Source: an uncultured Pelagibacteraceae bacterium (GTDB lineage Bacteria; Pseudomonadota; Alphaproteobacteria; Pelagibacterales; Pelagibacteraceae). Taken from it: DNA of 64,000 bases. The notes beneath the pieces were generated by a model. That model was given only the letters and a program-made list of their open reading frames with translations, ran no database searches and was not told the DNA's origin. Of this stretch, positions 33,142 through 34,280 are shown piece by piece (within the stretch, counting starts at the first letter, position 1; every line of letters starts with the position of its first letter). The translations under genes were made by a program, and so were the position numbers. The stretch spans positions 17,501 through 81,500 of the forward strand of contig CACJFE010000004.1 in assembly GCA_902592655.1 (NCBI GenBank). Reading direction: 5' to 3'.

Positions 33142-33218
<77 letters not shown>

Positions 33219-33223
33219 TTAAA

Positions 33224-33427
33224 TTACTTTTTTTTTATATTAATAGCCTGAAGTTTATTTTTTTCTTCTTTAATATCGTAAATTATTTTTTGGTCCTCTT
33301 TTAAAACTCTTAATTTCGATTCCTCTAAAGCTGAAACATGAAGAAAAATATCTTTTTTTGTTTCATCATCAGTTATAAATCCATATCCTTTTTTGGCGTT
33401 AAACCACTTAAGCTTACCTGATGGCAT
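33224..33427 (-). CDS. cspA: Cold-shock domain protein
   Basis: 67 residues from ATG 33427 (MPSGKLKWFNAKKGYGFI); the track's longer form adds MRGLQ. KWFNAKKGYGFITDD holds RNP1 and DIFLHVSAL RNP2, the nucleic-acid binding face of the CSD. The protein is of normal size. It follows rpsU closely, and rpsU-csp pairing is a translation-related arrangement seen in related bacteria. It ends 6 bases before the tRNA-fMet gene. Confidence 0.92.
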   Translation of the reverse strand: MPSGKLKWFNAKKGYGFITDDETKKDIFLHVSALEESKLRVLKEDQKIIYDIKEEKNKLQAINIKKK

Positions 33428-33449
33428 TTGTAATCCTCTCATTTTATTA

Positions 33450-33644
33450 TTAATATCTATTTTTAAGTTTTTGGAGTTTTTTTATTCTTTTTAAGTTTTC
33501 CGTCTGAACTCGTTTTTTTTTCTCAGATGGTTTTTCATAAGTGCTTTTCATCTTCATCACTTTAAAAAAACCTTCTTTTTGAAGCTTTCTTTTTAGAACT
33601 CTTATAGCTTGTTCTACGTTGTTATCTTTTACATCTATTTTAAT
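33450..33644 (-). CDS. rpsU: 30S ribosomal protein S21 with apparent ATT start codon
   Basis: Not in the ORF track. The minus-strand frame reads IKIDVKDNNVEQAIRVLKRKLQKEGFF...MKMKSTYEKPSEKKKR...KLKNRY and stops with TAA at 33452-33450 (64 residues). The N-terminus aligns with the start of S21 (M-x-x-V-x-V-x-x-N-x-x-x-E-x-A-L). Between the in-frame TAA at 33659-33657 and that start there is only CCG GAG GTT TTT, so no ATG, GTG or TTG is possible. ATT 33644-33642 lies 5 bases after a perfect GGAGG, so AUU is the probable initiation codon. Confidence 0.85.
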   Translation of the reverse strand: MKIDVKDNNVEQAIRVLKRKLQKEGFFKVMKMKSTYEKPSEKKKRVQTENLKRIKKLQKLKNRY

Positions 33645-33649
33645 AAAAA

Positions 33650-33654
33650 CCTCC
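33650..33654 (-). promoter_or_regulatory. Shine-Dalgarno GGAGG of rpsU
   Basis: A perfect GGAGG with a 5-base spacer to the ATT codon at 33644. Strong ribosome binding sites are scarce in this window, and this one fixes the non-canonical start of rpsU. Confidence 0.8.
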
Positions 33655-33695
33655 GGTTAATTTTACTGGTAGTTATCATTTGATATATTATTTGT

Positions 33696-34280
33696 CTATA
33701 GCGAAGCTGCTTGAGCCTTTTTTTCCTCTCTTAACTTAGCTTTTTTTTCTCTTTCAATTCTCCTTTTGGCCTTATCTAAACTTTTTTGAAAGGCTTCTTG
33801 AGTACATAAAGCTAAGATTACTGGGTCTCTTGGCTTCAAGTTTGAAAAGTTCCAATAACTTCTTTTTCTAATTAAAGAAACAGTTCCTTTAGTGCTACCA
33901 ACTAATTTTGAAATTTGTCCATCAGTCAACTCTGATGCGTTTTTACACAGCCATAATATTGCATCTGGTCTGTCTTGTCTTTTTGATAAAGGAGTATACT
34001 TTGGTTTTTTTCTCTCTTTTATCTCAACTTCCTCAATTTTTTTTAAGAGACTTAATTTTTTCGTCTTATCTTTTGAACATTTTTCAATTTCTTCTCTTGA
34101 TAGCTGTCCAGCTAAAATTGGATTATAAGCTTTTATACCTTTAGCAACATCTCCATCTGCAATACCTTTTACCTCTAGCTCATGCAAATTACAAAATTCG
34201 GCAATTTGTTTAAAAGTTAAAGTGGTGTTCTCTACAAGCCAAACAGCTGTAGCTTTTGGCATAAATGGTGCTTCACTCAT
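33696..34280 (-). CDS. trcR: Cell cycle regulator TrcR-like (DUF1013)
   Basis: 194 residues. MPKATAVWLVENTTLTFKQIAEFCNLHELEVKGIADGDVAKGIKAYNPI at the start and KYTPLSKRQDRPDAILWLCKNASELTDGQISKLVGSTKGTV in the middle are the two helix-turn-helix-like segments of the DUF1013/TrcR family, restricted to alphaproteobacteria. The C-terminus is a basic coiled coil (KAKRRIEREKKAKLREEKK). It is thought to act on transcription in the cell cycle. Its family restriction supports the taxonomic call. Confidence 0.88.
   Translation of the reverse strand: MSEAPFMPKATAVWLVENTTLTFKQIAEFCNLHELEVKGIADGDVAKGIKAYNPILAGQLSREEIEKCSKDKTKKLSLLKKIEEVEIKERKKPKYTPLSKRQDRPDAILWLCKNASELTDGQISKLVGSTKGTVSLIRKRSYWNFSNLKPRDPVILALCTQEAFQKSLDKAKRRIEREKKAKLREEKKAQAASL

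Follow-up and report, generated by a model that had tools for sequence, protein, structure and literature searches.

The DNA analysed here, a stretch of 64,000 nucleotides from an uncultured bacterium of the Pelagibacteraceae (the SAR11 family) that we refer to as the window, contains a gene for ribosomal protein bS21, rpsU, without a usual start codon, which raises the question of where its translation begins and why there. The gene encodes 64 residues followed by TAA (33450..33644, minus strand; terminal TAA at 33452-33450) and was recognised by a match to PF01165 and by homology to solved bS21 chains. Taken without residue 1, the protein still belonged to the Ribosomal_S21 family of PF01165 (E 7.5e-16, 58 bits, cut-off 27). 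The minus-strand frame reads TAA CCG GAG GTT TTT ATT AAA ATA GAT GTA, with an in-frame TAA (33657..33659, minus) five codons upstream of the ATT (33642..33644, minus) and a Shine-Dalgarno (SD) sequence GGAGG (33650..33654, minus) 5 nt before it. The initial annotation had proposed that rpsU starts at this AUU, and its account of the frame, the TAA, the GGAGG and the 5-nt spacing was correct in every detail checked. The absence of ATG, GTG and TTG from the interval, which it had also stated, was confirmed; the earliest canonical codon in the frame is a GTG at 33560, well within the gene.

The start was then compared across the family, using 80 GTDB contigs together with genomes of Pelagibacteraceae (12 of 14 sampled genera), with the start of rpsU registered by HMM. 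After removal of identical sequences 177 distinct loci remained, 100 from the genus of the window and 77 from other genera. The first codon was ATT in 164 loci, ATA in 3, ATC in 3, ATG in 6 and TTA in 1. Within the genus of the window the codon was ATT 95, ATA 3 and ATC 2; the other genera had ATT 69, ATC 1, ATG 6 and TTA 1, and one locus of this second set (L133) is broken by stops. GGAGG was retained in 95% of the non-ATG loci (93 of 100 in the genus itself, 69 of 71 in other genera), and the exceptions listed carry AGGAG or GGGGG. In most loci 4-6 nt separate the SD from the start; three loci have 9 nt. In the genus of the window the upstream stop lies at offset -5 in 87 of the 100 loci, and in 96 of them ATG, GTG and TTG are absent from this stop through codon +7. 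The gene thus combines the absence of AUG, GUG and UUG with a conserved AUH codon (AUU, AUA or AUC) behind a properly spaced SD, as expected for a non-canonical start. No rpsU was detected in the near-complete genomes (94-99%) G012, G032 (g12), G208 (g4) and G052 (g1), which may reflect loss, an assembly gap or strong divergence.

ATG at exactly the position of ATT was found in 6 of the 297 family genomes searched, all from a single genus (g4), and GGAGG was lost in all six. In a poorly resolved tree of the flanks, the six loci fell in two groups nested among AUU-bearing relatives, which points to one genus having exchanged AUU plus SD for AUG without SD once or twice, and not six times. Since these loci use exactly the same codon, they fix the N-terminus of S21. 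The initial annotation had regarded ATG in related strains as a sign of an error in this sequence; the ATT is not an error. Sequencing or assembly error is excluded by many independent genomes, including the complete single-contig genomes G003, G009 and G022 and single-cell genomes.

Conservation of ATT is not enough by itself, for an internal Ile codon would also remain AUH, and the start therefore needs a separate argument. If ATT were an ordinary Ile codon, the true start would lie elsewhere, at an upstream TTG or at the AUA of codon 3, and a canonical codon is indeed present at -4 in 33 of the 71 distinct non-ATG loci outside the genus of the window. In many lineages, however, an in-frame stop lies 2-5 codons before the ATT, in some just two, and the codons in between are the SD itself and lack conservation at the protein level. 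The AUA at codon 3 would sit 10-15 nt from GGAGG, and the six ATG loci again mark the ATT codon. We consider a start elsewhere very improbable. The TTG at -4, which occurs in part of g4 and which gene finders may choose, was rejected as a candidate; it overlaps the SD and is absent from the genus of the window. The proposed AUU start is strongly supported by ATT, ATA or ATC in 170 of the 177 distinct family loci, and rpsU of SAR11 is almost certainly translated from AUU. Variation among AUU, AUA and AUC with almost no AUG is the pattern that would be expected under selection for such a codon.

Outside the family, the 36 distinct loci of the sister family of the order started with AUA (35) or AUC (1), and AAGGAGG(G/A)CAGNNCNATAGT occupies the corresponding position there. 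A further 100 alphaproteobacterial genomes, spread over many families, gave GTG in 47, ATG in 21 and TTG in 17 (one TTG two codons upstream); the remaining 15 carried AUC, AUA, AUU or CUG where the start aligns, and in 11 of them the stretch examined contained no canonical codon. This sample was partly picked by match score, so its percentages are approximate. Of ten sister genera that were checked, nine keep AUH, the codon moving among AUA, AUC, AUU and CUG. An apparent CUG start was seen in four families (L482 in f69, L487 in f65, L296 in f66 and L347 in f151). As controls, rpsU started with ATG in all 28 non-alpha proteobacteria sampled and rpsP (S16) in all 26 genomes tested, most of which belong to the AUH set or the SAR11 order. 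Because both controls were uniformly ATG, a weak rpsU start is in this sample an alphaproteobacterial trait, of which SAR11 is the extreme. We found no report of an AUH start on rpsU in Alphaproteobacteria in the open-access literature, and within its searchable part the AUU start of rpsU is undescribed for this class.

Strong SDs are rare in the relative G003, where GGAGG precedes only 7 of 1160 genes, and the pairing of the rpsU SD (-12.2 kcal/mol) ranks about sixth of 1161. The 16S tail of this genome is GGATTACCTCCTTTCT, with the anti-SD CCTCC intact; its 16S 3' end (248675-248900) reads GGATTACCTCC, compared to the usual GGATCACCTCC. When all of G003 was scanned for an SD followed by AUH, CUG, ACG or GTH, a search blind to genes with weak SDs, rpsU was the sole convincing gene with SD and AUH; a general AUU habit in SAR11 was rejected on this result. 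Across the class, the median SD pairing was -9.3 kcal/mol for AUH rpsU genes versus -15.3 kcal/mol for ATG ones. The AUH genes do not have stronger SDs, which lends no support to SD strength as the cause of AUH across the class, and the coupling of AUU and SD is therefore not general.

Upstream of rpsU we found a predicted promoter, consisting of an extended -10-like element TGATAACTA (33670..33678, minus) and a -35-like TAGACA (33693..33698, minus) 17 nt before it. TGNTA was present in its place upstream of rpsU in 162 of 162 distinct family loci versus 1 of 147 control windows, and the -35-like element matched TTGACA at 5 of 6 positions in all 100 loci of the genus. A generic promoter scanner that requires T at position 6 did not list the -10-like element. 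From this promoter-like pair a leader some 20 nt long is expected. The upstream neighbour is the TrcR gene (33696-34280, minus; PF06242, E 1.3e-56), whose stop overlaps the -35-like element.

Directly downstream of rpsU lies a cold-shock-domain gene (33224..33442, minus; PF00313, E 1.4e-22). It was called from the ATG at 33442; the part homologous to the domain sets in close to an internal ATG at about 33407, which is the likelier start. It is followed by an initiator-type tRNA-Met(CAT) with the C1-A72 mismatch (33142..33218, minus), and both genes are likely to be on the rpsU transcript. In all 129 family loci where a CAT tRNA was found, it lies on the rpsU strand and downstream of the gene, straight after rpsU in other genera and after the cold-shock gene in the genus of the window. 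In G003 this tRNA is the only CAT tRNA with a C1-A72 mismatch. The anticodon stem of initiator tRNA usually has three G-C pairs; here it reads TCAGG/CCTGA, with A-U replacing one G-C pair. No CAT tRNA was present within the available flanks of the sister-family loci scanned or of the other alphaproteobacterial AUH-start loci, and the tRNA is therefore not a general reason for the weak start.

It is known that IF3 discriminates against AUU, AUC and AUA starts and spares AUG, GUG and UUG (PMC4611024; PMC5472188). IF3 was present in 18 of the 18 near-complete genomes of the SAR11 order that were checked. From the published biochemistry, the AUU start of SAR11 rpsU is probably sensitive to IF3, and control of rpsU by IF3, which the initial annotation had put forward, seems sound in principle. 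The infC gene itself was considered as the AUU gene of SAR11 and rejected: wherever its start could be resolved (12 of 22 infC loci, g5 and g12 left out) it was GTG or ATG, never AUU. Since SAR11 infC does not start with AUU where resolved, these bacteria show no counterpart of the classic infC AUU loop. In several genera the GTG of infC stands directly after a TAA stop, and others have ATG (L361, L362, L353-L358).

The state of the ribosome, that is, S21 occupancy and access to the anti-SD, is no less likely than IF3 to be the signal, because the strong SD is conserved. On the E. coli 30S subunit S21 and the SD helix would collide (PMC4611024), and in Flavobacterium ribosomes lacking bS21 initiate faster on rpsU mRNA with its strong SD (PMC9976891). 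The sign of the effect of S21 on SD use may differ between bacteria. In the mechanism that we propose, a short leader from the predicted promoter of rpsU itself would place GGAGG 4-9 nt before AUU, AUA or AUC. The initiator tRNA would read AUH with a third-position mismatch, so that IF3 would discriminate against the rpsU start, and strong SD pairing would let initiation on AUU succeed nevertheless. Subunits lacking S21, with a freer anti-SD, would pair best with the rpsU SD and pass IF3 at AUU, by which S21 would be refilled. Selection would keep the weak codon since S21 synthesis would thereby be held down and made dependent on the state of the initiation machinery. That AUU and a strong SD behind a short leader limit S21 synthesis, probably as homeostatic control, is the explanation that we favour and has in our judgement an even chance of being right. 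Sequence comparison shows where the gene starts, how widely that start is conserved, the SD and the range of codons used; the feedback of S21 on rpsU is a tentative hypothesis, to which we give somewhat less than an even chance.

Two other explanations accept the AUU start and differ in what it is for. If rpsU output simply tracked free IF3 like E. coli infC, the SD merely compensating for the weak codon, then the codons found in SAR11 would be the expected ones, being those that IF3 discriminates against in an order where IF3 is present, and sigR offers a precedent, being a gene other than infC whose start codon brings it under IF3 (PMC5472188). Many alphaproteobacterial rpsU genes, however, use GTG or TTG, which IF3 spares, so this cannot be the class-wide reason, and SAR11 infC lacks AUU where resolved; we regard direct control by IF3 as unlikely. 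Alternatively, the weak start could simply keep the output of S21 low and constant from a unit with strong transcription. The SAR11 transcript probably includes the initiator tRNA, and because that tRNA is highly transcribed, S21 would otherwise be made in excess. The downstream initiator-type tRNA-Met on the same strand, the conserved promoter-like elements and the weak GTG, TTG or AUH starts of rpsU throughout the class all agree with such static tuning. It is nevertheless no general cause, with the CAT tRNA missing from the flanks in the sister family and in other alphaproteobacteria with AUH starts, and a weaker SD would be a simpler route to a low fixed yield, yet the SD stays strong. This explanation seems quite unlikely to us.

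The homeostatic reading has parallels in known systems. The infC gene of E. coli, encoding IF3, is under AUU autocontrol, and Streptomyces sigR has a GTC start under IF3 (PMC5472188). SAR11 rpsU resembles both in having a start outside AUG, GUG and UUG, in that its yield matters for regulation, and in that IF3 is the expected discriminator. The differences lie in the gene, here rpsU, in a codon class that an entire family and order conserve, in the shifting of the codon among AUU, AUA and AUC, and in a dependence on IF3 that is presumed from the start codon. The autoregulation of Bacteroidota rpsU (PMC9976891) concerns the same gene, likewise with an unusually strong SD where strong SDs are rare and with a predicted promoter close to the start; there the anti-SD is sequestered by bS21, bS18 and bS6 and freed without bS21. 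SAR11 adds the AUU start, and its SD pairing is weaker (-12.2 kcal/mol in G003 versus -14 to -21 kcal/mol in Bacteroidota), falling slightly short of the Bacteroidota level (below -13 kcal/mol). No mention of SAR11 rpsU or of non-canonical starts was found in the passages of that paper that were examined. By analogy, the SAR11 rpsU start may be regarded as a variant of known control, combining the infC and sigR type of start with the rpsU of Bacteroidota.

S21 is also encoded by Pelagibacter phage HTVC008M and its relatives, so that viruses infecting the same hosts or neighbouring ones carry a homologue of the protein. The phage genes differ in that every start that could be assigned is ATG or TTG; the S21 of HTVC008M, which infects Pelagibacter, is annotated from ATG. 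No evident AUH start was present among the viral S21 genes (including L251, L252, L375 and L376), in which a start could be assigned except in several distant ones. Several phage S21 genes have TTG behind a strong SD of the AGGAGG or GAGGT type (L252 at 995-1204; L573, L575, L576, L580-L582 and L586), and others have ATG with a weak or GGTG-type SD.

Carried to the whole class, the proposal would be that rpsU is kept off AUG across Alphaproteobacteria as a regulatory device, with AUU or AUA fixed in the SAR11 order and AUC, AUA, AUU or CUG elsewhere, and that S21 synthesis has to pass two gates together, IF3 and SD pairing on subunits without S21, which would amount to translational autoregulation across the clade via start-codon identity; in this broad form we find it doubtful. 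If such a joint gate exists, phage S21 genes with ATG or TTG would bypass it, and the finding bears on the reason why aquatic phages carry S21.

Established natural non-canonical starts are few in bacteria, and the AUU of rpsU is nearly fixed across a family of very abundant marine bacteria, with similar starts in more than 10 further alphaproteobacterial families. Such a start would explain why rpsU can be missed or mis-started by start-codon rules. The weak start falls on a ribosomal protein that adjoins the anti-SD, and rpsU would be a natural reporter of IF3 stringency and of the S21 content of ribosomes in these organisms.
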